In this document: piece by piece, positions 8,849 through 62,008 of the stretch
How the letters are laid out: each line of letters begins with the position of its first letter
Position numbering within the stretch: position 1 is the first letter of the stretch
Assembly (NCBI GenBank): GCA_021824175.1
Contig: JAKALP010000008.1
Coordinates: forward strand, 62,001-126,000
Length of the DNA: 64,000 bases
Origin: Deltaproteobacteria bacterium
GTDB lineage: Bacteria; Desulfobacterota; Desulfobacteria; Desulfobacterales; Desulfosarcinaceae
Reading direction: 5' to 3'
The notes under the pieces: generated by a model
Told to the model about the DNA's origin: nothing
Databases searched by the model: none
The model's input: only the letters and a program-made list of their open reading frames with translations
Position numbers and translations under genes: made by a program

Positions 8849-8925
8849 TATCAATGTTCCTTTCCGTTAAAGTTGGAATTTCATTCCCCGTTGCGGCTGC
8901 GGTGGGGGAGAAATAGGGTGAACGT

Positions 8926-12406: not shown

Positions 12407-14989
12407 TCAATGGGCTTTGCCCAACAGTTCGAATGCCTTCTGGTCCGCCACCGTCTCTTCCAGCTCGATGTAGTTGAGCTTCATGCGGGTGGCTTTCAAT
12501 GTATTGGAAGAAAAGATGATGCTGTTGGGAAATTCTCGGGAAACATCCTGCAGGCGGAAGACATCGTTGACCGAGTCGCCGATGACGGTATAGTCCATCT
12601 TCATGTCAAAACCGATATTGCCGACGACTACTTCTCCGGTATGAACGCTGATGCCGATTTTAAGCTCCACGCCTAATGACCTGGCTTGGTCGTTATTCAG
12701 AATCGCCAGTGAAGAAAGCATTTCCAGGGCTGCGTTGAGGGCATTGTCGGCATCGGCCGTGCTGGAAACCGGAGCGCCAAATACCGCCAGAAAACCGTCT
12801 CCCAGGTACTTATCCACGATGCCGTTGTGTTTGAAGACAATTCCGCCCATCAAGGAGAAGAAGCTGTTGAGCAGCGCTACTGTTTTTTGGGGCCCGAGGG
12901 ATCTGGCTAATGTGGAAAAACCGCGGATATCCAGGTTGATCAGGGTCAATGTCTTGAGCTCTTCAGTCAGCTCGGCGCCGGAAGCGGCACCGCGCAGAAT
13001 TCTCTCCAATACTTCCTTGGGCACGAATTTCTGAAAGATCTGACGAATGCCGCGCTCGTTCTCCGCCATGGCCACGGTCTCTTTGTAGAGGTTGGCGTTC
13101 TCCACGGCGATGCTGACCGACGAAGCAATGGATTGCAGCAATTCTTCATCTTCGCGCGTAAATTCTCCGATGGTTTTGTTGAGCACTTCGATGACGCCGA
13201 TGACTCGGCCTTGTGAAATCATGGGAACACATAACGCGGATTTGACATCAACGTTCTTATCCGCATCCGCCTGGGACATAAACAGCGTCGCGTTCTGTCC
13301 GGTTTGCACTACCACGGATTCGCCGCGTGCCGCCACATGTCCGGGAATACCCTGGCCCAGCTTAAGTTGCACCGGTTTGCGTTGATGACCGTCAATGTTG
13401 AATGAAGCGGCAAAATCCAGCCCGCCATCCTTGACCAGGTAGAGCGCGCCGGCCTCGACGTTCATGATGGTGCGGATCATCTCCATGGTGTAGTTGAGCA
13501 CCTGGCGGATATCAAAAGTAGATGAGGCCAGCGCGCCGCCGATTTGCCGGATGGAATCCAATTCGCGATTGCGTTTGATCACCGAATCATAAAGCCGATT
13601 GCGCTCCAGCACCAAAGAGAGGCAGCGCGCGGTCCATTCGATAAAAGGGTGCTCACACTCGGCTCGATAATTTTCGCGCATGATCAGAGCCAGCAGGCCG
13701 GTCAGACCGCCCGCGGTACGCAGCGAACAGAGATAGAGCGGCCGGCGCACGCGGTCGTCCATGATCTGTGTTTGCAGGTCCTGGGACAGGGCCTCGGTGT
13801 CGGTCAACAGGGTGACGGTGGGGCGCCGGATAACCTTACCCAATATGCTTTCCTGGCTGATGTGGAAGAATTGGCCTTTTATGGAAATCAGCGGATTGAC
13901 GGAGAGCAGCTCTTGAACGCTTAATTCGTCCAGCCGCGTGCCATCGGCTTTGAACAGAAAAGCGGCTTCAAAGTCAATGACCGTCCGGACTTCGTTCAGG
14001 CAAGCGCGAACCATCTCAGTACCCCGGATGCTGGAGTGGATGATATCGAAGATGGCGGCGATGGTCTTCAGATGGGCATCCTTTTGTTTCATTTCACCCA
14101 GAAGCTGAAGGTTTTCGAAGGTGAAGGCGGCATTGCTCACCATGGGTTCAAGAGCATCAATGATATCCTGTGGATAGGGAAGATTCTTGGCTTTGCGCGA
14201 AATATTCATCACGCCGATTATTTCCCGGCTGGTTTTGATGGGCAGGCAGATGAATGCTTTGGTGCCATACTGGGACCGGTTGGCGCGGCCGAAGCGCGAA
14301 TCTTTTTCCACATCATCCACCACCATCGCGGCTTTATTCAGAACCGCATATTTGGCGATGCTGTTTTCAAAATCCACATAGGGATCGGATTTGACCCATT
14401 GGCCCAAACCAATGGCGGCCTTCACCACGAACCGCTTGCGCTCCGGTTGTTCAAGCAGCATGATGGAGCCCACATCCGAGTCGGTCATGGCCAGAGCGCG
14501 CTCCAGCGTGACATAAAGAATTTCATCCGGGTCTGTAGTGACATAGCAGAGGTCGGCCAGCTCTTTGAGAAAAGCGATCTCCTTGTTTTTGCGGAGCAAT
14601 GCCTGCTGATTTTTATCCAGATGAACATCGATGACCCCGATGTTTCGAATCAACTGATGCAGTTCATCATGGCCTTGAGCGCTTGATGATTCCTGGGGAT
14701 AGGCGGTCTGAATGCGCTGGGAAAGGTTCTGGGAAAAGCGCGTGATCTCATCGAACACCCGGCGCAGGAGAGTAAACCCCAGGAAGGCGAATATGAGCAG
14801 AATGGCAAAGAAGACAGGTAGATAACGATCTTCCAACAGATGGTATTGAATGCCGAAATAGATCAACCCTGCCACTGGCACCAAGAAAAAAGAGCAGAAA
14901 ATCACGTTGAGCTTGCTGTAAAGGGAACGGTTTTTCAGCCAGCGACGGTTCAGCCATGCGTACAGGGGTTTTATGGGGTTCGGCTCCAT
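12407..14989 (-). CDS. Membrane-anchored class III adenylate/guanylate cyclase with three GAF domains
   Basis: This 860-residue protein should make cAMP or cGMP in response to ligands bound by its GAF domains. It has two N-terminal membrane helices (about 24-46 and 54-76), a HAMP-like helix, a first GAF (about 145-300), a second GAF-like region (310-465), a third GAF (480-640), a short coiled coil and a C-terminal cyclase domain (670-850). The metal aspartates are in INLDIRGFS (D about 687) and DKYLGDGFLAVFG, and the domain continues with HTGEVVVGNIG and DYTVIGDSVN. Base specificity is not decided. GAGGA lies 6 bases before the ATG. A near-consensus sigma-28 promoter upstream puts it in the flagellar regulon. 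Confidence 0.88.
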   Translation of the reverse strand: MEPNPIKPLYAWLNRRWLKNRSLYSKLNVIFCSFFLVPVAGLIYFGIQYHLLEDRYLPVFFAILLIFAFLGFTLLRRVFDEITRFSQNLSQRIQTAYPQESSSAQGHDELHQLIRNIGVIDVHLDKNQQALLRKNKEIAFLKELADLCYVTTDPDEILYVTLERALAMTDSDVGSIMLLEQPERKRFVVKAAIGLGQWVKSDPYVDFENSIAKYAVLNKAAMVVDDVEKDSRFGRANRSQYGTKAFICLPIKTSREIIGVMNISRKAKNLPYPQDIIDALEPMVSNAAFTFENLQLLGEMKQKDAHLKTIAAIFDIIHSSIRGTEMVRACLNEVRTVIDFEAAFLFKADGTRLDELSVQELLSVNPLISIKGQFFHISQESILGKVIRRPTVTLLTDTEALSQDLQTQIMDDRVRRPLYLCSLRTAGGLTGLLALIMRENYRAECEHPFIEWTARCLSLVLERNRLYDSVIKRNRELDSIRQIGGALASSTFDIRQVLNYTMEMIRTIMNVEAGALYLVKDGGLDFAASFNIDGHQRKPVQLKLGQGIPGHVAARGESVVVQTGQNATLFMSQADADKNVDVKSALCVPMISQGRVIGVIEVLNKTIGEFTREDEELLQSIASSVSIAVENANLYKETVAMAENERGIRQIFQKFVPKEVLERILRGAASGAELTEELKTLTLINLDIRGFSTLARSLGPQKTVALLNSFFSLMGGIVFKHNGIVDKYLGDGFLAVFGAPVSSTADADNALNAALEMLSSLAILNNDQARSLGVELKIGISVHTGEVVVGNIGFDMKMDYTVIGDSVNDVFRLQDVSREFPNSIIFSSNTLKATRMKLNYIELEETVADQKAFELLGKAH

Positions 14990-15558: not shown

Positions 15559-17151
15559 GTGAAATCGAATTCAATGCGTTCAGGTCAGATGGCAATTGCG
15601 TTGTTAGTTGTTCTCGCTTTAACGATCAGCGGTTGCGGCGGTGGGAGCGGCGGCAGTAGTAGCAGTAGCAGCGGCGGACCTTCTCCGGCACCCACGCCGG
15701 CGCCTGTCGTTTCTTTTGACTCATCTTCGGATGTTCCGGTAACCGCCGGCAATGCGACCAATCTATTGCTTTCCGGCACTTGCACCAGCGTGGGCAGAAT
15801 GGTCACGGTCAGCGCCACGGATAAGAATTCCAATTCCGTCACAGTCGTGCCTTCGCCGGTGTGCCAATCAAGCGGCGGCTCACAGAATGAGGGGACCTGG
15901 GAAGTATCGATCAATCTGCGCAATATGGCCGACAGCACCGGCAGCGCCAAAGATATTTTTCTATCAGCGGGCCAGATCGATGGGGCCGGCAATTCCGGCT
16001 CGGCAACGATGCGGCTGAACAAATCGACGGGCGCTACCATTTGCACCTCTAGTGAGCTAACCGCCATTGAAAATGAGATCACAACCGCTTTGGACGGCAT
16101 TTGCCCGACGACCGATACCCCCTTTTCACTGGATGTCAAAGCCGTGGATGGAAGTCGGGAGTTTACCTATAATTGCAATATCTCCACTATGGACACCCGA
16201 TATGAGTCAGCCTCCACCTCCAAATGGGTGGCGGCAACGGTGATTCTTTATTTCATGGAGAGCACCGACAATCTCGATGCCAATAATAATTTGATTCTCA
16301 CGCTGGACAGCCATCCCTGGGAACTGATTGACGCCAGCATTTGGCCGATCACCCAAGGCGATCCGCTCTATAATATGACGCTGCGGCAATTGCTGAGTTT
16401 TACTTCCGGGCTTACTCAATCTGTTGTTTGCACTGATATAGATAATCCCAACGGTAGTTTTACCGGCTGCATTACCAATATCGCTAATGCAAATAAAAAC
16501 GGGATGGGAGCTGTGCCTGGCACTGTTTTCTCTTACGGCAGTAATCATTTGCAGGTCGCCGGTTTAATGGCCATTGAGGCCTACAACAGAGCCCATAACA
16601 TAAGCAGCGCGACTTGGCAGACTTTATGGAGCAACTTTACGAGTGAAACCGGTCTATTCCCCAAGCCCGATTCAGACTTTGATATTCCCTCCGAAAGCAA
16701 TCCCCGGCTGGCCGGCGGGATGCATTGGACCGGATCACACTATCTGGCCTTTATTGAAAAGTACTATCAGGGTCAAATTTTATCATCCGCTATACTCAGC
16801 GGCCAATTACTTCCATTATATCAACAGCAGTTATCGGATCAGATTGGAACCGCCGCCACCTCCGAAGCCGGCGGCGGCAATTCGCCCGCGTTGAAGGCTA
16901 TCCTCGAAGACTGGCATTATGGCTTCGGCAATTGGCTGGAGTGCCATGCCAATCCATTTGACTGTTTCAGCGGAGTAGACAGCCATTCATCTCCAGGCCT
17001 CTACGGCGCTTACCCCTTCATCAATTTCAGCAATAAGTTTTATGGAATTCTGGCTCGTAAGGGAGATTCGAATACCTTTCGCAACGGTTATGACATCTTT
17101 GCGCAGATCAGACCGTTGCTGGAGAAATGGGCTTCACGCGCTTGCTCGTAG
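15559..17151 (+). CDS. Lipoprotein with Ig-like domain and beta-lactamase/serine-hydrolase fold domain
   Basis: The 530-residue precursor has a lipoprotein signal ending ISGC (C26), a Gly/Ser/Pro linker (27-50), an Ig-like beta-sandwich (about 50-155) and a C-terminal penicillin-binding/class C beta-lactamase-like domain (about 165-530). S219-T-S-K222 fits the SxxK nucleophile motif, and Y326-GSN is a plausible variant of the second YxN motif. A KTG triad is not obvious. It could be an esterase or D-Ala peptidase acting in the periplasm or on the surface; true beta-lactamase activity is not implied. Many paired cysteines suggest oxidative folding. GTG start with GGAGGG 7 bases upstream. Confidence 0.7.
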   Translation: MKSNSMRSGQMAIALLVVLALTISGCGGGSGGSSSSSSGGPSPAPTPAPVVSFDSSSDVPVTAGNATNLLLSGTCTSVGRMVTVSATDKNSNSVTVVPSPVCQSSGGSQNEGTWEVSINLRNMADSTGSAKDIFLSAGQIDGAGNSGSATMRLNKSTGATICTSSELTAIENEITTALDGICPTTDTPFSLDVKAVDGSREFTYNCNISTMDTRYESASTSKWVAATVILYFMESTDNLDANNNLILTLDSHPWELIDASIWPITQGDPLYNMTLRQLLSFTSGLTQSVVCTDIDNPNGSFTGCITNIANANKNGMGAVPGTVFSYGSNHLQVAGLMAIEAYNRAHNISSATWQTLWSNFTSETGLFPKPDSDFDIPSESNPRLAGGMHWTGSHYLAFIEKYYQGQILSSAILSGQLLPLYQQQLSDQIGTAATSEAGGGNSPALKAILEDWHYGFGNWLECHANPFDCFSGVDSHSSPGLYGAYPFINFSNKFYGILARKGDSNTFRNGYDIFAQIRPLLEKWASRACS

Positions 17152-17167
17152 TAAAAATGGACTCAAG

Positions 17168-18994
17168 TTAGAACTGATCCAACGTCAAGTCGCGGCCCGT
17201 AACCGTGCTTTGGGTAGTGAGCCCGGCCAGGGCCAGGGCCGTGGCGCCGAGATCCGATATCCGGATCGGCGAGCGGTTCACGCCCTTTTTTCCGCCCGGT
17301 GTTTTGACGGCCGCCATGATGGGCAGGGTGTCCACGGAGCCGTGGCCGCCGTTATACACGCGCCAGGGTGGCGTCCAGGTGGGGACGTTGATGCCCACGT
17401 TGGGGATATGGCCGTTGTAAACCGGAATCTGCCAGCCGTTTTTGGCCAGAATCACCAGATCGGGCCAGAGCATATTTCGCTCTCGATCCACATCCACGTA
17501 ATAGGAGTGATAGAGTTCGCCGGGCAGACTCACGCCTGGCACGCCCTTTCGCATGTCATCGCGGTCCAGCACCCACCAGGGGCATTCCAGGGCGCCGGTC
17601 TGGGGGTTTCTTGCTCGATGGGAGAGCAGAATCGCTTGGGCGCGGGCCACCTCTTCTTTTCTTTCCCGCCAATACAGCACGCCATAACTGCTGACACTGA
17701 AGGCATAGACCCCTTCGGTGCGCAGTTTCGCCTTTTCGAGGATGGCCATGACATCGGTGGAGAAGAAATCTTCGGTACTCAAATGGTTGATGGAGGAGTG
17801 ATCGCTCAGTAGAATAATGTGTGCTTCTTCGGCTATCCCCAGTTCCTTAAGGCCCTGGATCAGGCGTCCGAATTGCTGATCTACATCACGGACGCAGTCG
17901 AGAACCCCTTCCCGGACGATCAGGCCATTTCGTTTGCTCACCATGAGATTGTTGATGTCGCGCGCGGCCGGCGTTCCGGCGAGTTCGGGATTTGCCTGGA
18001 TGAATTCCGCTGGGTCGTGGGCCGTGCCGATACAGTGCCCACCGTCATCGCACTGGGCCAGAAGAATGTAGGCCAGATCCGGGTCTTCGCGCCGGAAGAT
18101 TTCCAGGGCTGAATCAGCCACCCAACCATCATGGGGGAAGTGTTCGGGGAAATGCTCCATCTGGACGGTCAGAAGACTTCCCTGGCCGGTGTAGAGGCGG
18201 GTCATGACCTGGGATGGATTCAGGTGGGACAAGATATGGCCCTTTTGCATATGGCTGAAATCGAAAAAACCCCGGTGTCCCGACTCGTAATCGTCTTTGG
18301 CATTCGCGTCGGTGTTGGGATCAGCAAAACTCTCTTTTTGCGGCGGCGCAAGATAGGCCGGATGGTCTTTGCCCGTGACGATGAAATCCACAATAGGCGG
18401 GTCGCCGATGTCCTTGAACATCTCCGCCACCCACTCTTTGCCGCTGATGATCATGGTTTTAGAATCCGGCCACTGGCGTTTCCAGGCGTGAAAGATGGTG
18501 TCCACGGGCCGGCCCTGGTCGTCGCGCGCAAAGGAGAGATGGGAGCGTTTCAGAATCGCTTTGTCGCCGTTCCAGGATGCGGGTTGCGCCCAGACGCCGA
18601 TGATGCCGGTCTGAGCCGAACTGCAGCCAGCCATGGCATTGAGATGATTCATGTCCGTGGCCGCGGGCAGATGGGCCAGGGCATTGGGATACCACAGGCA
18701 GCTGTCCAGGAATGCGCGGAGATTGGGCATCAGCCAATTTCCCGGCGTGCCGCCCTGGTTGCCCATGGCATCCAAGCTCGCATAGGCCGGGTGCAAGGCA
18801 TCAATGGCGATATAGATGAGTTTTTGAGGTTCTTCTGATTGGGTATTCAGCGCGGCCAATGTTTTCGCGGCTTTTCCGGGGCCGACCAGGGAGCCCAGAA
18901 CCACGGAGCCGGTCACTACCCCTGCTTTTTTTAGAAAATGTCTACGGCTCACCGACTGACACTGTTCTGTTTTCTTCTTCTTCTGTTTTTTCAT
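17168..18994 (-). CDS. Tat-exported alkaline phosphatase superfamily enzyme (NPP/sulfatase-like)
   Basis: The 608-residue precursor carries a twin-arginine signal (SRRHFLKKAG, about residues 17-26) and a hydrophobic stretch, so it is exported folded. The mature part resembles nucleotide pyrophosphatase/phosphodiesterases: IYIAIDALHP gives the first metal Asp, ATDMNHLNAMAG the Thr nucleophile and NH signature, LLSDHSS the Asp-His pair, and GGHGSVDT a late His. The substrate may be a phosphodiester, phosphonate or sulfate ester. It follows the amidohydrolase gene by 7 bases and is the last gene of the C39-RimK-GCS2 operon, hinting that the pathway product is processed in the periplasm. ATG 18994 avoids a 29-base overlap with the upstream gene. 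Confidence 0.8.
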   Translation of the reverse strand: MKKQKKKKTEQCQSVSRRHFLKKAGVVTGSVVLGSLVGPGKAAKTLAALNTQSEEPQKLIYIAIDALHPAYASLDAMGNQGGTPGNWLMPNLRAFLDSCLWYPNALAHLPAATDMNHLNAMAGCSSAQTGIIGVWAQPASWNGDKAILKRSHLSFARDDQGRPVDTIFHAWKRQWPDSKTMIISGKEWVAEMFKDIGDPPIVDFIVTGKDHPAYLAPPQKESFADPNTDANAKDDYESGHRGFFDFSHMQKGHILSHLNPSQVMTRLYTGQGSLLTVQMEHFPEHFPHDGWVADSALEIFRREDPDLAYILLAQCDDGGHCIGTAHDPAEFIQANPELAGTPAARDINNLMVSKRNGLIVREGVLDCVRDVDQQFGRLIQGLKELGIAEEAHIILLSDHSSINHLSTEDFFSTDVMAILEKAKLRTEGVYAFSVSSYGVLYWRERKEEVARAQAILLSHRARNPQTGALECPWWVLDRDDMRKGVPGVSLPGELYHSYYVDVDRERNMLWPDLVILAKNGWQIPVYNGHIPNVGINVPTWTPPWRVYNGGHGSVDTLPIMAAVKTPGGKKGVNRSPIRISDLGATALALAGLTTQSTVTGRDLTLDQF

Positions 18995-19001
18995 GTTCCC
19001 A

Positions 19002-19697
19002 TCAAACTTTTGAGCGAATCGCGGTTTCAAGTCCGTCCAGCACGGCCTCGCTTAGATCCCGCCAGTGGCGCCATCCTTGCACGAATGTGCGCTGGTTCAA
19101 TTCCAGCTCGATGCCGATGTAGCGCTCGGGATATAGGGTTCGAAAATAAGTGGCCAGCCCGTCGGAAACGCCTTTGTAAGGTTCGTTGCTGCTGATTTTA
19201 TAAATCGGATGAGATTCACGGATCGCTGCTTTCCATTGGCGGCAGAATTCCTTTTCTGCTTCACGTCGGGGATCGTAAAGCAGGCCCACATCCATATCGC
19301 GCACCTGGCCATCCAATACTGGCGTAAAGCTGTGGCAGGCAATGTGTAGAACTCTTTTTTTTCGGGCCATGGCTTTGGTCACAGCCCGCTGAATGGGATC
19401 GCGGTGGGGGAAGTAATAGCGGTCCAGGATGCTCTTTTTAACAGCAGGGGTCCAGGATCGGGTGATTTTGGAGAAAAGCCGAGGGTGGCCCACGCTGCGA
19501 TTGAGATCCACCAACAGCCGGGAAGTAAAGGCCGCAAAAAGAGGCGCGTTGAAACGCTCGGCCATCATGCGCGCGGTCTGCACGGCCCCCAGGTCATAGC
19601 CCCGGTGGGAATTCAACAGTTCTTCGTGCCCCTTAAAAAGCCGCTGGTAGGGTTTGGGGATCTTATTGCCGCCGTGTTCGCAGGTGATGATGATCAT
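19002..19697 (-). CDS. N-formylglutamate amidohydrolase-like hydrolase
   Basis: This 231-residue protein belongs to the N-formylglutamate amidohydrolase family, zinc hydrolases that cleave N-acyl glutamates. Signature parts are visible: CEHGGNKIP at residues 6-14, HRGYDLGA at 31-38, LLVDLNRS near 61 and HIACHSFTP in the middle. The true start is taken as ATG 19697, whose ATGA overlaps the stop of the GCS2-like gene. The ORF upstream of it reads inside that gene. In this operon a histidine-utilisation role is unlikely because no hut gene is present. Cleavage of a gamma-glutamyl or acyl-glutamate bond in the operon's product is the better guess. Confidence 0.83.
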   Translation of the reverse strand: MIIITCEHGGNKIPKPYQRLFKGHEELLNSHRGYDLGAVQTARMMAERFNAPLFAAFTSRLLVDLNRSVGHPRLFSKITRSWTPAVKKSILDRYYFPHRDPIQRAVTKAMARKKRVLHIACHSFTPVLDGQVRDMDVGLLYDPRREAEKEFCRQWKAAIRESHPIYKISSNEPYKGVSDGLATYFRTLYPERYIGIELELNQRTFVQGWRHWRDLSEAVLDGLETAIRSKV

Positions 19698-20932
19698 GGT
19701 GTAAACACTCTTCCCATTTCCAGTCCAGTACAAAGTTCGCCATAAATCTCTTCCAGATGTTCGCGGCGCAAATCGCCCGCCAGGGCCGTAGAAATACGCC
19801 GGGCCAGGCACCCGTGGGTCAGAATGATGTGCAGCGCGGCAGATAATTCTTCTTCCCAGTGTGTGCCATCAATGCATGTGGCGGCCAAATGCTGCCAGAT
19901 CTCCCGGGTCGTCGCGCGGGAACGATTTATCCCCAGGGCCATTAAATAGGGCTTATGGTTTATAACCGCGCCGTCCGCATCACGAATTACTTCCAGAAAC
20001 AGATCAGCCAGTAGGTTCGTATCCATGGTCTTGATGGCTTCAGTGGGCATCCACTGTTCCCGGCACAAGGCCTGAAGCGCGAAGGAGATCAGACCCGCGC
20101 AGGCCAGATCCGCCTGGGGGGCCTCCTGGATGTCCAATACACGGATCTCGATGGCGCCACGGTCAAAACGGGCAATGGCGCCACGGGCGTTAAGAAATTC
20201 GTGCTGCAAGGCGCCGTCGGGATCATAGGGGGCGATATCACTGTACATGCGCTGGAAGATATCGCGCTCATAGGCCGCCTGGGTGTAGACCGGCTCGGGT
20301 ACGATACGGCCGGCCACCGAAGGGATGCGCTCCGAATTGTGGCGGTATACTTCCATGCGGCTGTCCAGATTACCGGTACGCTTTCCGTCGAGAATGGGTG
20401 AGGTCGCGGTCAGGGCCGGCATGATGGGCAGCAACAAGCGGATGGCGGCATGCAGCCGGCCGAATTCATCGTCGCCGCAAAAGGGCAAGTTGATGTGGGT
20501 GCTCTGGAGATTGGACCAGCCGTGGCCCCGGCACCCGAAAATGCGGTCAAAGGCTTCGTATACCGGGCTGTACTCATGGGGCCAGAGTTTGGTTTCGGTC
20601 AACGGGTCCATCCAGGGATGGCAGGCCGTGGGCATGAGCCGTCCACCCAGCGGCGCCAGGATGGCGTTGATCTTTTGAATGTCGTGTTGGAACAAAGCTT
20701 TCAGGCCCGGCACGGCTTTGGCCGGACCATTGGTTTTGAGTTCAATGACGTGCAACACCAGCTCGTTGGACCAGCTCAGCGGCCCCAGTTCCACTTCGGA
20801 AACGATTTGGCCGGCCGCCGCTTCCAGTACTTTATCCGCGATGGGCAGAACCGACAGGCTGCGCTGGTCCACAATCATGTATTCCAATTCGATGCCGATG
20901 GCTTCGAAGAGGTGCAAAGAAGTTTCGGTCAT
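19694..20932 (-). CDS. GCS2-type carboxylate-amine ligase
   Basis: The 412-residue protein belongs to the glutamate-cysteine ligase type 2 (YbdK-like) family, ATP-dependent enzymes that join the gamma-carboxyl of glutamate to an amine. The opening GIELEYMIVD is the Mg/ATP-binding strand, and STHINLPFCGDDEF and NSERIPSVAGRIVPEP follow in family order, with the arginine/glutamate-rich IEIRVLDIQEAP further on. The substrate amine is unknown. It overlaps the upstream RimK-like gene by ATGA, and GGAG lies 9 bases before its start. Two different amide ligases back to back suggest stepwise assembly of a short peptide. Confidence 0.87.
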   Translation of the reverse strand: MTETSLHLFEAIGIELEYMIVDQRSLSVLPIADKVLEAAAGQIVSEVELGPLSWSNELVLHVIELKTNGPAKAVPGLKALFQHDIQKINAILAPLGGRLMPTACHPWMDPLTETKLWPHEYSPVYEAFDRIFGCRGHGWSNLQSTHINLPFCGDDEFGRLHAAIRLLLPIMPALTATSPILDGKRTGNLDSRMEVYRHNSERIPSVAGRIVPEPVYTQAAYERDIFQRMYSDIAPYDPDGALQHEFLNARGAIARFDRGAIEIRVLDIQEAPQADLACAGLISFALQALCREQWMPTEAIKTMDTNLLADLFLEVIRDADGAVINHKPYLMALGINRSRATTREIWQHLAATCIDGTHWEEELSAALHIILTHGCLARRISTALAGDLRREHLEEIYGELCTGLEMGRVFTP

Positions 20933-22401
20933 GCGTTGCGGCTCCCGGAGGCGCGGTTTTCGATGCGTTTGAGAAATACTTCCATGATGCGCAGGTAGAG
21001 CTCATCCTGGAGCACGTCATCTTCATAGCCGGATTCAATGTTGGGATTATCGTTGATTTCGATGACCACGGCCGTTTTGCCAATCTGTTTGAGATCCACT
21101 CCGTAAAGGCCCTCGCCGATCAGGTTGGCCGCTTTCAGTGCGGTTTTAACCACGGCTGAGGGCGCCTTGCCCACTGGCAGGGTCTCCACCTTGCCATATA
21201 CTTCCCGGCCGCCTTTATCCTTGCGAACGATCTGCCAATGGTTGCCGGCCATATAGTATTTGCAGGCAAACAGCGGTTTGCAGTCCAGAATGCCGATGCG
21301 CCAATCGAATTCCGATGGCAAATACTCCTGGGCGATGAAGAGTTCGGACTTTTTGAGCAGTAATTTGGCCTGCTCCAGCATGGTTTCTTGATTTTCCACG
21401 CGCACCACGCCCTGGGAAAAAGAGCTGTCCGGCTGCTTTAGGATGCAGGGGTAGCTGATGTTCGGCAAAAGTGCTTCCAGGTTTTTGGAATGGACTATGC
21501 GGGTTTGGGGGATGTTGATTTTGGATCGCCCCAGCAGTTCCGCCAGGTAGACTTTGTTGGAGCAGCGCAAAATCGATTCGGGATCATCGATCACCACCAG
21601 CCCTTCGGCCACGGCCTTGCGCGCCATGCGATAGGTGTGATGATCCACGTTGGTGGTTTCGCGAATGAACAAGGCGTCAAATTCGGATAGGCGGTTGGAA
21701 TCTTCCTTGGTGATCAATTCCACGCCGATACCCACCTCTTCGGCCGCCTTGGCAAAGCGCTTGAGAGCTCTGGGGTCCGAGGGCGGGCGTTCCTCATCGG
21801 GATTATATAAGATGGCCATGTCATAGCGCGACACGGCCCGCTTGGGGATGTAGAGTTTCTTGCCGGCAAAATACTCCGAGGCCACCGATTCGGCAAAGGC
21901 GCGTTCTTCCACCGGGATCTCTTTGACAGTCAAAGGCGATACATTGGTCAGTTGCCAATAGTCCGCATAAAATCCGAAATCGGCCCTTAAAAATGGCGTC
22001 GGGAAGAATTTGAAGAGCCGTGAGCTGATCTGCTCGAAACGTTTATCCTGGCTTTTACCGAAGTAAATATCGATGGAGATCTTATGCGGATCATGATCCG
22101 TGAAAAGCTTTTCCAGGGCCTCTTCCAGCTCTTCGGAGACCAGGCGGATGATGCCCACCGACTTCATATCCTGAATGGTGGTGATGTTGGGGACGGGTTT
22201 GTGATTGCGGGCCTCGGCCAGCAGGCTGACATAATAGCCGATGCTCTGATACCGATAAGAACGGCAGATATTGAATACCTTGGCGCCTTTAAGATTGGAA
22301 AAGGAATGATCTGATAAATAGGTTCGGGCGGACACCAGCTCAAAGCCGGCAAATTGGAGCGGGCACTCTTCCGGGTTTTCAATGACCACAAGAACGGTCA
22401 C
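20929..22401 (-). CDS. RimK-type ATP-grasp ligase with RLAN-like N-terminal domain
   Basis: The 490-residue protein has an N-terminal alpha/beta domain of the type called RLAN (RimK-like ATP-grasp N-terminal) at about 1-150, a linker, and a C-terminal ATP-grasp module (about 285-480) like RimK/LysX. PCILKQPDSSFSQGV contains the ATP-binding Lys, and VIEINDNPNIESG the Mg-binding Glu/Asn. Such enzymes ligate amino acids, often glutamate, to a carboxylate through an acyl phosphate. The start is GTG 22401 with a perfect AGGAGG 4 bases upstream. It sits between the C39-like peptidase and the GCS2-like ligase. Confidence 0.86.
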   Translation of the reverse strand: MTVLVVIENPEECPLQFAGFELVSARTYLSDHSFSNLKGAKVFNICRSYRYQSIGYYVSLLAEARNHKPVPNITTIQDMKSVGIIRLVSEELEEALEKLFTDHDPHKISIDIYFGKSQDKRFEQISSRLFKFFPTPFLRADFGFYADYWQLTNVSPLTVKEIPVEERAFAESVASEYFAGKKLYIPKRAVSRYDMAILYNPDEERPPSDPRALKRFAKAAEEVGIGVELITKEDSNRLSEFDALFIRETTNVDHHTYRMARKAVAEGLVVIDDPESILRCSNKVYLAELLGRSKINIPQTRIVHSKNLEALLPNISYPCILKQPDSSFSQGVVRVENQETMLEQAKLLLKKSELFIAQEYLPSEFDWRIGILDCKPLFACKYYMAGNHWQIVRKDKGGREVYGKVETLPVGKAPSAVVKTALKAANLIGEGLYGVDLKQIGKTAVVIEINDNPNIESGYEDDVLQDELYLRIMEVFLKRIENRASGSRNA

Positions 22402-22419
22402 AATTCCTCCTTTTAAAAT

Positions 22420-23136
22420 TTACCTCCCCTTGGGCGGGGTGACAATCAACAAATTTGCGTCATAGGTTAGGATGCCCAACATAATGGCGCACACCAGACG
22501 ATTCAAGCGCACCGGGTAAATTTGGCTGGCGCTGATGGGATTGGGCAACAAGGGGTCGGCTACCAGGGCGGTACGCTCCTGCATGTCATAACCGCACAAG
22601 ACCACAAAGTGGCCGGTGGGTTCTCCTTGGACATCGTCATAGATCATTTTTTTGCCGGCCTCGATTTCCCGCGCCGTGCGGTAAAGAAAGGTGGCTGACA
22701 GGCCTGTCAGGATTGGAACCGACCGCTTGAGCAGACCGCGGATCAGGTTGGCGGTCAAGTCCTCAAAGCGGATGGTGCCTCCCAGTCGCAGAAACTCAAG
22801 GTAGGCCAAAGAGGCCGAACGGATTTTGGGGTTGCTCTTGGCCCGCATCTGGCGGATCAGGCGCTCCTGCATCTCCCGGGGGCTCAGCTTGAACCAGGTG
22901 GGATCAAACACCTGCAGATTAAAAGTGTAGAGTTTGGCTCGATAGCCCCGTTTAAGGGCGTGGCACCCCATGAGGACCGCCAAGGTGCCGCCCCCCTTGA
23001 GCTGTTTGACCTGGCGGATGACCTGAGGCAGCGGGATTTTATCTCCAAAGTAGTTGTATACCGCTTGCAGGCAGGTCGGCCCGCAGGTGGTGTCGTCGGG
23101 CTGGGCTAGAATTTCAAAGTGGAGTCGTGTATCCAT
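22420..23136 (-). CDS. C39-like papain-fold cysteine peptidase
   Basis: The 238-residue protein has a papain-like peptidase layout resembling family C39 (leader-processing peptidases). The oxyanion Gln is near residue 12, C18 in DDTTCGPTCL is the nucleophile, H176 in GHFVVLCGYD is the general base, and D194 in VADP the third residue. It lacks a transporter domain and a signal peptide, so it acts alone in the cytoplasm. It is the first gene of the operon. It may cleave a precursor or catalyse transfer, as some C39 relatives do. The ribosome binding site is weak, so the exact start is uncertain. Confidence 0.8.
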   Translation of the reverse strand: MDTRLHFEILAQPDDTTCGPTCLQAVYNYFGDKIPLPQVIRQVKQLKGGGTLAVLMGCHALKRGYRAKLYTFNLQVFDPTWFKLSPREMQERLIRQMRAKSNPKIRSASLAYLEFLRLGGTIRFEDLTANLIRGLLKRSVPILTGLSATFLYRTAREIEAGKKMIYDDVQGEPTGHFVVLCGYDMQERTALVADPLLPNPISASQIYPVRLNRLVCAIMLGILTYDANLLIVTPPKGR

Positions 23137-23547: not shown

Positions 23548-24582
23548 ATGAAACGCAAACTGAGAATCATCCTCCCGATTATTTTGATTATCGCCATTGG
23601 AACGATCGCGATCCGTTATTTTGTAAAGGTCGAAGAAGAGATTAACCAAACCCATCTCAATATCTTCGGCAATGTGGATACCCGCACCGCTCAACTGGCC
23701 TTCATCGAGCAGGAGCGCATCGATCAGGTTTTGGTGGAAGAGGGGGCTGTGGTAACGGCCGGGCAGGCTTTGGCCATTTTGCAAACCAACCGGTTGAAGG
23801 CCCAGATGGCCGAGGCCCAGGCCCAGGTCAGCGCGTTGCAGGATGCCGTTGATCGTCTTGAAGCCGGTACACGGTCGCAGCAAATCGACCAAGCCAGGGC
23901 TGAAGTATCGGCTGCCAAGACGCGGGTCGCCAACGCCGAACTGAACTACCAGCGCTTGAAACAGATCACCGATGCCGGCATTGTCAGCCTCCAAAACCTG
24001 GACAATGCCCAGTCCCAGCTGGAGGTGGAAAAGGCCCAGCTCAAGGTTAGGGAAAAAGCCCTTAACCTCGCTCTGGAAGGGGCGCGCAAAGAGGATATCG
24101 CCGAAGCCCGCAACCGGCTGCAGGCTGCCAAGGCCAGTCTGGAACTGTTCAACATCCGCCTTAAAGATATGACCCTCCTATCGCCTTCCGATGGCGTCAT
24201 TCAGAACCGGATTCTCGAACCCGGCGAAATGGCCGGCCCCAGTCGACCGGTCTTTACCCTGGCCCTCAATGATCCCAAATGGGTGCGGGCCTATGTCGCC
24301 GAGCCCGACCTCGGGCGCATCGCCCAAGGCATGACGGCTACGATCCAGAGCGATTCCTTCCCTGGCGTAACCTTTGAAGGCTGGATCGGTTTCATCTCGC
24401 CAGTGGCCGAATTTACCCCCAAGAATGTTGAAACTTCCGATCTGCGCACCAAGCTGGTGTACGAAGTGCGGGTCATGGCCCGGGATCCCCGCAATCAATT
24501 GCGTCTGGGCATGCCGGTGACGGTCAGCGTGGACCTGACCACCTCACCGGGCCCTGGAAAGGACGCGGCGGTCAAGGGGTAA
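23548..24582 (+). CDS. ybhG: HlyD-like periplasmic adaptor of an ABC exporter
   Basis: The 344-residue protein is a membrane fusion protein: an N-terminal membrane anchor (about 5-25), a biotinyl-lipoyl half motif, a long alpha-helical hairpin rich in Ala, Gln and Glu (about 80-210), the second lipoyl half (LLSPSDGVIQNRILEPGE), and a beta-barrel domain. It would link the inner-membrane transporter below to an outer-membrane channel. No TolC-like gene is in the window. It is the first gene of a four-gene set in the order of E. coli ybhG-F-S-R, which is linked there to export of toxic cations and drugs. Confidence 0.85.
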   Translation: MKRKLRIILPIILIIAIGTIAIRYFVKVEEEINQTHLNIFGNVDTRTAQLAFIEQERIDQVLVEEGAVVTAGQALAILQTNRLKAQMAEAQAQVSALQDAVDRLEAGTRSQQIDQARAEVSAAKTRVANAELNYQRLKQITDAGIVSLQNLDNAQSQLEVEKAQLKVREKALNLALEGARKEDIAEARNRLQAAKASLELFNIRLKDMTLLSPSDGVIQNRILEPGEMAGPSRPVFTLALNDPKWVRAYVAEPDLGRIAQGMTATIQSDSFPGVTFEGWIGFISPVAEFTPKNVETSDLRTKLVYEVRVMARDPRNQLRLGMPVTVSVDLTTSPGPGKDAAVKG

Positions 24583-24588
24583 AACTCC

Positions 24589-26379
24589 ATGGGTCTTCAA
24601 GCAATGGTACATGATCCCCAGGGGCGCGATGTCGTGCTGGCTGTGCGCCGACTGAGCAAATCCTTCGTCGTTAAAAAAGGCGCCGCACCCCAAGTGGCGC
24701 TCGACGAGGTGACCCTGGATGCCCTGGCCGGCCAAGTCACGGGGCTGGTAGGCGCTGATGGGGCTGGCAAGACCACCTTGATCCGCACGGCCGCCGGCCT
24801 ATTGGTGCCCACCAGCGGTTCAGTGACCGTGCTGGGGCTGGACAGCACCCGGGATGCTTTGGAGATTCAACGTCAAGTCGGCTACATGCCGCAAAAGTTC
24901 GGATTGTATCAGGATCTGAGCGTGGCCGAAAACATGACCCTTTATGCCGATCTCCAGGGCGTGCCCATGGATCAGCGGCCGCGGCGCTTTGAGCGGCTTT
25001 TGCAAATGACCGACCTGCAAGCATTTACGCGCCGCAGAGCCGGTGCCTTATCCGGCGGTATGAAGCAAAAATTGGGGCTGGCCTGCGCCCTGATCAAATC
25101 TCCGCGGATGCTGCTGCTCGACGAACCCACCGTAGGCGTGGACCCGGTATCCCGGCGGGAGCTTTGGAAAATCGTCTACGAGCTGGTGGAAGAAGAGGGG
25201 ATCGGAGTACTTCTTTCTACGGCCTATCTGGATGAGGCCGAACGTTGTCACCAGGTGATTTTACTGCATGAAGGTCGCAAGCTGGACGAGGGGCCGCCTC
25301 AGAAATTCAAGGACCAGATCCGCGGCCGGGTGGCGCTGGTGACGCCGCCTGCCGAAGTCAAAGCGCGTCAGATCCAAAATCAGCTGGCCGGCCAAAGCGG
25401 CATCCTGGATGCCACCATCCGTTCCGCGCGGGTGCGCGTGGTGACGGCCCAGGGCGCAGTGCAGCGAGTGAAAGAAATACTGCCCAGCGCCTTTCACTCC
25501 CATGTTCAAGAAACGGAGCCAACCTTCGAAGATGCCTTCATGGCGTTGATTCCCCATCGGGAAAGCCAGTTGCAATTTCTTCAACGCTCGGAAACCCAAA
25601 CCCATAATAACCACCAAGAAGTGATGGTGCGCACTCACGGGTTGCAGAAGTTCTTCGGAGAATTTGAGGCCGTCAAGAAGATCACTTTCGAGGTACGGCG
25701 AGGGGAGATCTTTGGATTACTGGGGCCCAACGGCGCCGGCAAAAGTACTACTTTTCGGATGTTGTGCGGACTGTTGAGCGCCAGCGGCGGAGAAATCAGC
25801 GTGGCCGGTCACGATCTGCGCCGCTCTGGCGCCCGGGCCCGGGCCCGCCTGGGATACATGGCCCAGCAGTTTTCGCTTTACGGCCAACTCAGCGTGGAAG
25901 AAAATCTCTCTTTCTATGGCCGGGCCTATGGTTTGACCGGCGCCAAGCTCAAGCAGCGTCTGGCCTGGGCCGATGAAGAATTCGGGCTGACCCAGTGGCG
26001 TCAGATACAGGCCGGTCAGCTTCCCGGCGGTTACAAACAGCGGCTGGCCATGGCCGCGGCCCTGTTGCATGAGCCGGATATTCTTTTTCTGGACGAACCC
26101 ACTTCGGGGGTCGACCCCCTGGCCCGGCGCGAATTCTGGCTGCGCATCAACGGTTTCGCCGAACAAGGCGTTACCGTGGTGGTGACCACCCACTTTATGG
26201 AAGAGTCCGAATACTGCGATCGGATGCTGATCATGTCCCAGGGGGCGAGCCTGGCCATGGGCACACCCGACGAGATCCGCCATCTGGCCTATAGCTCAGA
26301 TAACCCTGATCCTACCATTGAAGATGCCTTTGTGGCACTGGCCCTGGGAGTATTGCCGGCCGGCCGGAACGAGGAGTAG
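24589..26379 (+). CDS. ybhF: ABC exporter ATPase with two fused nucleotide-binding domains
   Basis: The 596-residue protein holds two complete ABC domains. The first has Walker A GADGAGKTT (55-63), signature LSGGMKQK and Walker B MLLLDEPT. The second has GPNGAGKST, the degenerate signature LPGGYKQR and ILFLDEPT. The GADGAGKT form of the first Walker A and the LPGG form of the second are typical of YbhF/RbbA-like proteins. It is encoded 6 bases after the adaptor gene and energises the two permeases downstream. Confidence 0.9.
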   Translation: MGLQAMVHDPQGRDVVLAVRRLSKSFVVKKGAAPQVALDEVTLDALAGQVTGLVGADGAGKTTLIRTAAGLLVPTSGSVTVLGLDSTRDALEIQRQVGYMPQKFGLYQDLSVAENMTLYADLQGVPMDQRPRRFERLLQMTDLQAFTRRRAGALSGGMKQKLGLACALIKSPRMLLLDEPTVGVDPVSRRELWKIVYELVEEEGIGVLLSTAYLDEAERCHQVILLHEGRKLDEGPPQKFKDQIRGRVALVTPPAEVKARQIQNQLAGQSGILDATIRSARVRVVTAQGAVQRVKEILPSAFHSHVQETEPTFEDAFMALIPHRESQLQFLQRSETQTHNNHQEVMVRTHGLQKFFGEFEAVKKITFEVRRGEIFGLLGPNGAGKSTTFRMLCGLLSASGGEISVAGHDLRRSGARARARLGYMAQQFSLYGQLSVEENLSFYGRAYGLTGAKLKQRLAWADEEFGLTQWRQIQAGQLPGGYKQRLAMAAALLHEPDILFLDEPTSGVDPLARREFWLRINGFAEQGVTVVVTTHFMEESEYCDRMLIMSQGASLAMGTPDEIRHLAYSSDNPDPTIEDAFVALALGVLPAGRNEE

Positions 26380-26408
26380 AAGATATTTCACAAGTTCCAA
26401 AATCGTAC

Positions 26409-26449
26409 TCGTACTCGTACTCGAAAAAAATGTTCGAGTACGAGTACGA
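26409..26449. repeat. Perfect 17-bp palindrome inside the exporter operon
   Basis: TCGTACTCGTACTCGAA (26409-26425) and its exact complement (26433-26449) flank a 7-base loop in the 103-base gap between the ATPase and first permease genes. The RNA hairpin would sit just upstream of the permease ribosome binding site and could modulate relative expression, though it also resembles a simple-repeat palindrome family. Confidence 0.85.
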
Positions 26450-26482
26450 AAAAGAAATTGCAGGAGGGTGGAAGATATAAAC

Positions 26483-27616
26483 ATGACCCGACGCGCTCTT
26501 TTCTTCATGCGACTGCGCGGCTTTCTGCGCAAGGAGATGCTGCAAATCTACCGCGACCCCAGCAGCATTGCCCTGGCCATCGTGCTGCCCATGGTGTTGC
26601 TGTTTATCTTCGGCTACGGAGTATCCCTGGATGCCGAAAACGTACCCATTGCCATGGTGCTGGATGACTCCGGTCCCGAAGCCCGCGACCTGGCGGCCCG
26701 TTTTGATTTATCCATTTACTTCCATGCCCATTATGCCAAATCGATCACCGAGGCGGAGCAATGGCTGACCCAGCGTCAAGTGGAAGGTATCGTACGCGTC
26801 CCCCAAGGATTCACCGCCGACTTGTATGGCGGCCGAACCGCCAAAGTTCAGGTGATTCTCAATGGCGTGGATGCCAATCGCGCCCGCCTGGTGCAAGGCT
26901 ACTCCCACGGCGTGCTTCAGAAATGGAGTGAGTTCCGCATTGCCAGGGGCCAATCGGCCCAGCATCCGGCCGTGACCGTGGCCCAGCGCGTCTGGTTCAA
27001 TGAGGCCAGTGTGAGTCGCAATTTTCTGATCCCCGGCCTGATTACCCTTATCATGACCTTGATCGGCACTCTGCTCACTGCCCTGGTGGTGGCCCGGGAG
27101 TGGGAACGGGGCACCATGGAGGCTATTCTAGTTACCCCCTTGCGCCGCATCGATCTGCTGCTGGGCAAAGTGCTTCCATACTATGTGCTGGGCATGATGG
27201 GTATGTTATTGTCCGTGGTGGTCGGCATTCTTTTATTCGGGGTGCCTTTCCGGGGCTCCATCAGCGCGCTTTTATTCTTAAGTTCGCTATTCCTGCTCTC
27301 CTCATTGGGATTTGGCCTTTTTATTTCTTCCATGATCCGGGTGCAGTTCGTGGCGGCCCAAGTTTCCATTGTAACCGGCTATCTTCCGGCGCTTTTTTTG
27401 TCCGGCTTGCTGTTTGATCTGGAGAGCACGCCGCGGTTCATTCAAATTTTCTCCTACATCATTCCAGCCAAGTACTTCGTGGCCATCAGCCACACTCTGT
27501 TCATGGCCGGCAATGTCTGGCCGGTGCTGTGGCCCAATGCCCTTGCCCTGGCCGGCATGGCCACGCTGTTTATCGCTCTGGCCTATCGTAAGATGGTCAA
27601 ACGGTTGGATTCCTGA
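26483..27616 (+). CDS. ybhS: ABC-2 type exporter permease, first subunit
   Basis: The 377-residue permease has one N-terminal helix (about 27-47), a large extracytoplasmic domain (to about 175) and five C-terminal helices, the ABC-2 membrane pattern. The motif RFLIPGLI-like NFLIPGLITLIMTLIG and the amphipathic REWERGTMEAILVTPL before the next helices are family hallmarks. ATG 26483 is chosen over the longer in-frame ORF from 26318, because upstream codons read through the palindrome and overlap the ATPase gene, and GGAAGA lies 7 bases before it. Confidence 0.88.
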   Translation: MTRRALFFMRLRGFLRKEMLQIYRDPSSIALAIVLPMVLLFIFGYGVSLDAENVPIAMVLDDSGPEARDLAARFDLSIYFHAHYAKSITEAEQWLTQRQVEGIVRVPQGFTADLYGGRTAKVQVILNGVDANRARLVQGYSHGVLQKWSEFRIARGQSAQHPAVTVAQRVWFNEASVSRNFLIPGLITLIMTLIGTLLTALVVAREWERGTMEAILVTPLRRIDLLLGKVLPYYVLGMMGMLLSVVVGILLFGVPFRGSISALLFLSSLFLLSSLGFGLFISSMIRVQFVAAQVSIVTGYLPALFLSGLLFDLESTPRFIQIFSYIIPAKYFVAISHTLFMAGNVWPVLWPNALALAGMATLFIALAYRKMVKRLDS

Positions 27617-27657
27617 AGGAATCAACAAATATTTTCCCACGATAAAAGAGAAGATCA

Positions 27658-28779
27658 ATGGTTTCGACATTACGACGCATTTGGGCTTTGATTCGCAAAG
27701 AGTTTACCGCCATTCTCAAAGACCCGCGCAGCCGGGTGGTTATCATTGGCCCACCCTTGATCCAGTTCATGATGTTCGGTTATGCCGCCACCTTCGATGT
27801 CAAAAATGTGCGCTATGCCGAATTCGATGAAGATCGCTCCGCCCTATCCCGGCAGCTGCTGGCCAGTCTGCGTGGTTCCGACAGTTTCACGCGCGTCAAA
27901 ACCCTGTTGTCCAATGAAGAGATCAATACCGTGATCGATCGCCAGCAAGCCCGACTGGTGGTGCACATCGGACCGACCTTCAGCCGCGACATCCAGAACG
28001 GGGTGCAGACCAATATTCAAGTACTGCTTGACGGCCGCAATTCCAATGTGGCCTTGATCGCCATGGGCTACATCGGCACCATTTTGGAGCAGTTCAACCG
28101 CGATTTGGCCGCGCGCGGCTTGAGCGGCCTGGGCGGCGGGGTCATCCTGGAAGAGCGGGCCTGGTATAATGACAATCTCCAAAGCCGCTGGTTCATGATC
28201 TCGGGATTGGGCGGCGTGGTCAGCATGGTGGTGGTGATGATTCTCACCAGCCTTTCGGTGGCGCGCGAGCGCGAGTTCGGCACCTTTGATCAATTGCTGG
28301 TGGCCCCTTTCCGGCCGGGCGAAATCCTCATCGGCAAATCCGTACCGGGCATGCTCTTTGGCCTCGTGGATGCACTGATCTTTTCCGCCGGGGCGGTCCT
28401 CTGGTTCGAAATTCCTTTCCGGGGCACCCTCGGCGCGCTCGTGATCTCCCTGGCCTGCTTTATTCTGACCATCGTGGGCGTGGGATTGCTGGTGTCCTCG
28501 CTCTCCACGACCATGCAGCAAGCCTTGCTGGGCTCCTTTATCTTCATGATGCCGGGCATCATTCTTTCAGGCTTTACCACCCCCATCCAGAACATGCCTC
28601 ACTGGCTTCAAGTTGGAACGTTGATCAATCCCATCCGGTACGTCATTCAAGCGTTGCGGGAAGTCTTCCTGGAAGGCGCCGACTTGGTAAGGGTTTGGCC
28701 CCAGCTCTGGCCTTTGCTCCTTATTGCCTGCGTGACCCTGCCGGCCTCGGCTTGGATGTTCCGGCACCGGTCACAGTGA
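27658..28779 (+). CDS. ybhR: ABC-2 type exporter permease, second subunit
   Basis: The 373-residue protein is a paralogue of the preceding permease: an N-terminal helix, an extracytoplasmic domain of about 140 residues and five C-terminal helices. The conserved VAREREFGTFDQLLVAPF and PIQNMPHWLQ segments mark the YhhJ/YbhR family. The two permeases probably form a heterodimer driven by the fused ATPase. It starts 41 bases after ybhS and ends the operon. An inverted repeat that could terminate transcription follows. Confidence 0.88.
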   Translation: MVSTLRRIWALIRKEFTAILKDPRSRVVIIGPPLIQFMMFGYAATFDVKNVRYAEFDEDRSALSRQLLASLRGSDSFTRVKTLLSNEEINTVIDRQQARLVVHIGPTFSRDIQNGVQTNIQVLLDGRNSNVALIAMGYIGTILEQFNRDLAARGLSGLGGGVILEERAWYNDNLQSRWFMISGLGGVVSMVVVMILTSLSVAREREFGTFDQLLVAPFRPGEILIGKSVPGMLFGLVDALIFSAGAVLWFEIPFRGTLGALVISLACFILTIVGVGLLVSSLSTTMQQALLGSFIFMMPGIILSGFTTPIQNMPHWLQVGTLINPIRYVIQALREVFLEGADLVRVWPQLWPLLLIACVTLPASAWMFRHRSQ

Positions 28780-61876: not shown

Positions 61877-62008
61877 GCGCTTTAAAAAACCACCATTCTT
61901 TTGTTGACGTGCATAGCACTACTGTCAGTAGGAAAGCCTTGCACCTAACTTTGCCGATGCCTTGACGCAAACTCGCCAAAATGATGGCGTTGTTGGGAGA
62001 GCTCGTAT

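Follow-up and report, generated by a model that had tools for sequence, protein, structure and literature searches.

A conserved cassette of two amide ligases and two hydrolases in a Desulfosarcinaceae genome and its relatives

Locus and protein families

The window analyzed here is a stretch of 64,000 nucleotides (positions 62,001 to 126,000 of contig JAKALP010000008.1) from the 6.07 Mb genome of a deltaproteobacterium of the family Desulfosarcinaceae (assembly GCA_021824175.1). It contains a run of five adjacent genes on the minus strand, from position 23136 down to 17168, and the first four of them, encoding two amide ligases and two hydrolases, constitute the cassette with which this paper is concerned. 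The domains of all five products had been named in a preliminary description made from the sequence alone: each gene call was confirmed, and Pfam placed each gene above the curated cut-off, as follows.

22420..23136, minus strand: C39-like papain-fold cysteine hydrolase, 238 aa (PF13529 and PF03412)
20929..22401, minus strand: RLAN and RimK-like ATP-grasp amide ligase, 490 aa, GTG start (PF14401 and PF08443)
19694..20932, minus strand: GCS2-type carboxylate-amine ligase, 412 aa (PF04107)
19002..19697, minus strand: hydrolase of the N-formylglutamate amidohydrolase (FGase) family, 231 aa (PF05013)
17168..18994, minus strand: type I phosphodiesterase-like protein with a twin-arginine translocation (Tat) signal, 608 aa from the ATG (PF01663); it adjoins the cassette and was judged not to belong to it

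The RLAN-GCS2 and GCS2-FGase junctions are 4-base ATGA overlaps, as had been described, while the C39-RLAN junction, for which an overlap had also been claimed, is an 18-base gap. The phosphoesterase gene begins 7 bases after the FGase gene, in agreement with the earlier account. Promoter and terminator scans returned 6 sites (5.9 expected) and 9 sites (9.7 expected), respectively, and such near-chance numbers carry no information; no tRNA was found in the window. A crude hydropathy check gave no hydrophobic N terminus in the four cassette proteins and a single hydrophobic stretch near the C terminus of the C39 protein, from residue 214, so that this protein might contact the membrane.

The RLAN protein scored 150.4 bits with PF14401 (cut-off 25) at residues 25–171 and 36.8 bits with PF08443 (cut-off 21; best stretch 281–362), the domain order of an RLAN-type ATP-grasp ligase. 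Residues K283, K322, D436, E448 and N450 were invariant in 25 aligned proteins; the catalytic roles of such residues, here and in the other three proteins, are taken from their families. The AlphaFold2 model (predicted local distance difference test, pLDDT, 85.2) had ArgX, LysX and RimK as top PDB matches over about 300 alignment columns, with RimK bound to RpsF also present among the best 50 of 1,385 matches. The structural match presumably concerns the ATP-grasp part, since the sequence matches lie mainly at residues 234–459; for the RLAN domain itself we know of no structural match. The preliminary description had named ordinary RimK or glutathione-type activity as the outcome that would speak against a new pathway, and by NCBIfam the ligase is set apart from an ordinary RimK by its score of 23.3 bits with the S6-ligase equivalog NF007764 (cut-off 331); it did not reach the glutathione synthase model either (23.7 against 272).

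In the GCS2 protein, E15, E17, E64, H146, E262 and R264 were invariant among 23 aligned proteins and correspond to E17, E19, E60, H138, E237 and R239 of Escherichia coli YbdK. Its profile had no match to solved structures by sequence, but the fold search did give matches: the best one for the AlphaFold2 model (pLDDT 90.9) was YbdK, 1r8g (Foldseek E 8.6e-13), with 15% identity in the structural alignment. Fold and core residues, held in common with YbdK and the plant-type glutamate-cysteine ligase (GCL), place the protein in the GCS2 superfamily, where the model ranks nearer to YbdK and plant GCL than to PafA and Dop, both of which match weakly. It is not a known glutamate-cysteine ligase by NCBIfam either: it fell below TIGR02050 (48.5 versus 176.4), TIGR02048 (30.4 versus 249.05) and TIGR03444 (22.6 versus 370.8), and the PRK13517 group gave at best 44.1 bits against 409, the best glutamate-cysteine ligase equivalog score. 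Both ligases were thus rejected as classic glutathione or S6 modification enzymes, since the NCBIfam cut-offs were missed by either of them.

The C39 protein has invariant Q12, C18, H176 and D194 (21 proteins aligned), which we take to fit a C39-type active site. Its match to BtrH_N was weak (E 0.059, 14 bits against a cut-off of 29.7), and a bacteriocin-processing peptidase, in which C39 is fused to an ATP-binding cassette (ABC) transporter, was rejected for this protein of 238 aa with no transporter domain match. In the FGase-type protein, which reached 86.2 bits with PF05013, residues H8, H122, E197 and E199 were invariant in 16 aligned proteins; the nearest solved structure by sequence was 2odf (Atu2144, uncharacterized), and N-formylglutamate deformylase (HutG) was discarded at 12.7 bits against 278.75 for TIGR02017.

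Conservation, nesting and flanking genes

Among 60 genomes searched, the window's own included, the RLAN query detected full-length relatives with 83–86% identity in 8 of the 10 other genomes of the same genus and, with 44–69% identity, in 4 further genomes of the order. From a scan of named genomes the best 80 of at least 580 RLAN relatives were kept, a set that leans to close relatives; together with the 12 loci from the relatives (8 of them on contigs also represented among the 80) they gave 92 loci, in which iterated profiles found C39, GCS2 and FGase repeatedly beside RLAN. Order and spacing were counted in 139 distinct loci, mostly chosen via RLAN similarity, with a floor of 50 bits on the matches. 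C39 was followed by RLAN within 400 bp in 89 of the 90 distinct loci having both, RLAN by GCS2 likewise in 89 of 90, and GCS2 by FGase in 57 of 58. This one-strand arrangement of all four genes, present in the window, was found in relatives too, and the order is beyond chance. Bearers of the cassette include the cultured Desulfatitalea alkaliphila (L059) and Solidesulfovibrio magneticus (L064, L066).

The co-occurrence across genomes was nested. In 297 genomes of Desulfobacterota, RLAN was present in 14, GCS2 in 11 (all with RLAN), C39 in 11 (10 with RLAN) and FGase in 8 (all with GCS2), the exception being genome G193 with a C39 but no RLAN match; these counts are set by E-value limits, and the association statistics (Fisher) ignore kinship. 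The second sample comprised 185 genomes from the class of the Nitrosomonas genome G356 (L125), searched for RLAN, GCS2 and C39: RLAN occurred in 44 of them, while GCS2 and C39 were found in the same 11 genomes, all RLAN-positive. RLAN can stand alone, GCS2 and C39 are added to it together, and FGase is added to those. FGase is an optional member: it was present in 54 of the 84 loci with C39 and GCS2 (type A), and 5 of the other 30 end at a contig edge. Of ten genomes tested whose RLAN locus lacks GCS2, in assemblies of unstated completeness, 8 were without any GCS2 match and 2 have GCS2 elsewhere. The two ligases and two hydrolases of the preliminary description are thus one conserved cassette with its order kept, while the fifth gene of the proposed set did not co-occur with it in the relatives searched.

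A conserved carrier, tag or transporter gene was not apparent near the cassette. Families of at least 70 aa from outside the cassette recurred in 6 of 80 loci at most, and families of small open reading frames (20–75 aa, within 2 kb), candidates for a precursor peptide or a carrier, in 3 of 85 at most. Several individual loci departed from the common layout. The RLAN-free C39 gene of G193 (L228:3170-3901) has as its neighbors a fragment of an ATP-grasp gene, cut by the end of the contig, a gene with a weak FemAB-type match and a gene resembling S-adenosylmethionine decarboxylase. A partner-less RLAN gene on a Pseudomonas aeruginosa plasmid (L150:7905-9494) is located near a set of glutamate/aspartate transporter, gamma-glutamyltransferase and asparaginase genes. 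In L148:5685-7192 the RLAN frame is broken by a stop, and the genome concerned, G284, also lacks a C39 match but keeps GCS2 and a short FGase match; in Nitrosomonas nitrosa (L116:15898-16638) FGase is found about 5 kb off the cassette and not beside GCS2.

The genes around the cassette were compared with those at sibling loci, and three of them lie downstream of the phosphoesterase gene in the window:

15559..17151, plus strand: protein with a beta-lactamase fold, its N terminus resembling that of a lipoprotein; a search of the 11 sibling and G046 stretches gave no match
12407..14989, minus strand: GAF/adenylate-guanylate cyclase protein; a relative directly follows FGase in L028 and L030
11090..12127, minus strand: M42 glutamyl-aminopeptidase-family protein; relatives lie downstream of the cassette in L028, L032, L033 and L035

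The 92 RLAN loci, short contigs among them, gave no match to the phosphoesterase, which was detected in only 1 of 59 other relatives (G046, 70% identity), where RLAN had no match. At sibling loci the FGase gene is followed by the GAF/cyclase gene (L028, L030) or by the M42 peptidase gene (L033, L035). Because siblings have other genes at this spot, the phosphoesterase and beta-lactamase-like genes are read as a private insertion, the latter perhaps belonging to the same one, and the phosphoesterase is judged to be a recent neighbor outside the cassette. Its Tat export, which had been claimed earlier, was supported by TIGR01409 (23.1 versus 16.7) but not by the Pfam TAT_signal model (13.2 versus 22.7). 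The preliminary description had combined all five genes into an envelope pathway, in which a glutamyl compound is built inside the cell and completed outside by the Tat phosphoesterase. The 7-base spacing is in its favor, in that the two genes may share a transcript in this strain. However, the conserved unit has four genes, the gene for the exported step is not kept with RLAN and is replaced in siblings, and the four cassette proteins all lack a hydrophobic N terminus; the five-gene unit and the step across the membrane are therefore dropped, and the envelope pathway, now extremely improbable, is largely refuted.

Six sibling loci extend by more than 1.4 kb past the cassette; an M42 gene is present there in 4 of them, and no relative of it in the longer sibling stretches L029 and L031. 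Directly upstream of the cassette and divergent from it, positions 23548-28779 encode an HlyD-like protein, a double ABC ATPase and two permease-like proteins, as read from the translations; the ATPase, with a 35–38% match in L028, was the sole member of this set with a match in the sibling stretches. Another stretch of the window (7676-10017) harbors a pectinesterase gene beside a GH43 arabinanase-like gene, which was unexpected in a relative of sulfate reducers.

Alternative partners of the RLAN ligase

Where GCS2 is missing from an RLAN locus in the class of G356, the gene beside RLAN mostly encodes a fusion of a GNAT acetyltransferase with the C39-like domain DUF3335. When 2 partial loci of the 44 were dropped, the remaining 42, counted without the 50-bit floor used for the tree, included 9 with C39 and GCS2, 29 with GNAT (26 of them with DUF3335), 3 without a partner and 1 with C39 alone. 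The weak GNAT matches at L118 (21.2 and 6.2 bits) fell under that floor in the final tree and spacing count. Three GNATs were compared with the RimI model (cut-off 86.4): the one of L206 passed it with 88.4 bits, while the stand-alone protein of L146 (79.4) and the fused one of L039 (70.2) were just under.

At E <1e-50, DUF3335 was found in 27 of the 44 RLAN genomes of the class and in 0 of the 11 with GCS2, as well as in 0 of 14 RLAN genomes of Desulfobacterota and in 0 of the 53 RLAN-free class genomes searched (of 141). With genomes treated as independent and kinship ignored, zero overlap between 11 GCS2 and 27 DUF3335 genomes among 44 has a chance of 1.6e-6. Weak DUF3335 matches were left out of these counts (G365, G477, G377 and G410; E 1.7e-5 to 1.9e-4), two of which, G477 and G377, pass the curated cut-off.

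The choice of partners mostly follows the RLAN phylogeny. A midpoint-rooted FastTree of 135 RLAN rows, obtained from the 139 distinct loci after four partial ones had been dropped, splits into two deep clades of 34 and 101 rows, with support 100 each. The smaller clade comprised 31 GNAT-type rows and 3 without a set, and none with C39 and GCS2, while the larger one, to which the window belongs, comprised 84 rows with C39 and GCS2, 16 without the two together and a single GNAT fusion. The latter (L039:6704-8650, in genome G049 of the window's order) is a GNAT-RLAN-ATP-grasp protein of 649 aa from a genome without a C39 or GCS2 match, and its place in the tree is unsure because of the long branch (1.04). 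The two clades have 83 conserved positions in common, and no position distinguishing one clade from the other was found at the thresholds applied, which suggests that RLAN probably catalyzes the same reaction in both.

Other hydrolase genes were seen near GNAT-type RLAN loci: genes clustering with DUF2817 (L185, L188, L221), M14 carboxypeptidase (L187, L195, L205) and ArgE of the M20 family (L186, L203, L213, L218), each of these cluster labels resting on one tested protein. Possibly, they fill the role of the FGase-type hydrolase there.

Possible function of the cassette

Neighborhoods of RLAN (PF14401) RimK-like ATP-grasp proteins were reportedly predicted by Iyer and colleagues in 2009. GCS2 and a fusion of GNAT with a papain-like peptidase are said to be among the neighbors given there, and GCS2 and GNAT-papain neighbors are also listed in the Pfam RLAN entry. 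We know of no test of the function of such a neighborhood, and the cassette appears to be of this predicted kind. No paper on a C39-RLAN-GCS2-FGase cassette was found among the open-licence papers listed. Within that literature, the additions made here and not found in print are the partner sets, exclusive in the sample searched, their match to the deep RLAN split, the nesting, the separation of the Tat gene from the cassette and the fusion of GNAT to RLAN.

Several characterized or partly described systems resemble the cassette. In the glutamylation of S6 by RimK/RimB, a ligase with the ATP-grasp glutamate ligase fold is likewise found beside a peptidase, but the cassette differs in its extra RLAN domain, its GCS2 partner and the low score with the S6-ligase model. 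Butirosin side-chain assembly employs an ATP-grasp ligase, gamma-glutamyl protection and the papain-like acyltransferase BtrH. The cassette is similar in its ATP-grasp ligase and its papain-like protein, the latter with the weak BtrH_N match, but genes for an acyl carrier protein or for aminoglycoside synthesis were not identified next to it, with the whole window not annotated for them. The GNAT-RLAN fusion and the M42 neighbor resemble the layout of the N-acetylglutaminylglutamine amide (NAGGN) system (asnO, ngg and an M42 peptidase). In that system one enzyme acetylates and ligates glutamine and is encoded beside a glutamyl aminopeptidase gene (PMC8070244). However, the RLAN protein of the window had no match to the ligase model TIGR03103 at E 0.1, L039 matched this model over its GNAT part only (23.6 versus 569), the M42 protein of the window stayed below the hydrolase model TIGR03106 (37.3 versus 397.75), and AsnO was not among the recurrent neighbors of the cassette; membership in the NAGGN system was therefore rejected. 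The Rlo operon of Pseudomonas (RloA retropepsin, RloB and the ATP-grasp protein RloC) also combines an uncharacterized ATP-grasp protein with a peptidase (PMC12239564), but its secreted retropepsin and membrane transglutaminase-like protein have no counterpart among the cassette genes.

We tentatively favor, with somewhat less than even confidence, a cytosolic cassette that would make and turn over a peptide metabolite which contains glutamate, is N-capped and stays inside the cell. RLAN would be the core ligase, forming an amide bond on an acceptor, either a small peptide or an amino acid, with glutamate as the probable residue joined, and GCS2 would attach a gamma-glutamyl group to one of that molecule's amines, in the position where the RimI-like acetyltransferase of the sister systems would put an acetyl group. 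Since the same ligase pairs with either GCS2 or GNAT/DUF3335, and never with both in the samples searched, the simplest reading is that both cap an amine. The C39 enzyme might cleave or transfer the peptide and the FGase-type enzyme might take off an N-acyl-glutamate-type group in recycling; the style of the product would be like that of the osmolyte NAGGN.

A number of observations weigh against this metabolite. FGase is absent from at least 25 of the 84 type A loci, and the 8 of 10 genomes without a GCS2 match indicate that the N-cap is not always needed. The 16 window-clade rows mentioned above include 8 with no partners, 4 with C39 only, 3 with GCS2 only and 1 with GCS2 and FGase at a contig end. 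The GCS2-positive genome G365 has a weak DUF3335 match (21.5 bits, below the cut-off), and Methanosarcina acetivorans, a control genome, has DUF3335 without RLAN, by which DUF3335 also works outside the RLAN setting. Because the partner exchange mostly follows one deep split, it represents few evolutionary events. In the loci compared, the M42 link is limited to the genus and the gene is not a recurrent neighbor outside it. We know of no substrate or product for any of the four cassette proteins, and homology to RimK suits protein modification equally.

Reversible modification of a protein, with RLAN glutamylating a protein C terminus, GCS2 extending or capping it and C39 and FGase removing the tag, is nearly as good an explanation as the metabolite, albeit rather unlikely in itself. 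The structural matches of RLAN are headed, together with RimK, by the carrier-protein-loading enzymes ArgX and LysX; PafA and Dop match the GCS2 model, if weakly, and the acetyltransferase of the sister systems resembles RimI, whose family takes its name from ribosomal protein S18. It is disfavored by the distance of RLAN from the S6-ligase model, by the closer relation of GCS2 to YbdK and plant GCL and by the lack of a recurrent carrier or tag gene beside the cassette, although a target encoded elsewhere would escape that search. The scavenging of blocked glutamyl peptides, in which the hydrolases would be the main activity and the ligases would re-use the pieces, seems quite improbable: it would agree with the two hydrolase families, with the M14, ArgE-type M20 and DUF2817 genes near some sister loci and with the M42 gene downstream in the genus, but RLAN is the most persistent member and stands without hydrolases, for which reason a ligase rather than a hydrolase looks like the core. 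Equally little room, or slightly less, is left for a glutathione-like route, with GCS2 making gamma-Glu-X (X perhaps Cys), the ATP-grasp enzyme adding a third residue like GshB and the papain-like enzyme acting as an amidase or in the manner of phytochelatin synthase. The pairing of GCS2 with an ATP-grasp enzyme follows the logic by which glutathione is made, and in its fold GCS2 matches glutamate-cysteine ligases, yet both ligases miss the pathway equivalogs, the GCS2 family was not found without RLAN in the two samples, and a thiol tripeptide does not explain an acetyltransferase as the alternative partner of RLAN. In PMC10318531, C39, BtrH and phytochelatin synthase are treated in one papain-like cluster, which speaks for such a route, and DUF3335 proteins are described as often fused to GNAT domains.

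With the exported phosphoesterase removed as a misleading lead, the tight association of two ligases and two hydrolases points to a hidden metabolic pathway, whose gene order is kept across sulfate reducers, Nitrosomonas, iron or sulfur oxidizers, planctomycetes and others. The mutual exclusion of GCS2 and the RimI-like acetyltransferase/DUF3335 around the same ligase offers a concrete chemical clue to it, an N-cap. In a wider sense, though we consider this doubtful, the RLAN ligases would represent one ancient and widespread metabolite system with exchangeable N-caps, a gamma-glutamyl group provided by GCS2 in the larger clade or an acetyl group from a RimI-like GNAT, in one case fused to the ligase, in the other, each with its own papain-like hydrolase, and the products would be undescribed capped glutamate peptides that perhaps serve as solutes or stress metabolites in several phyla.

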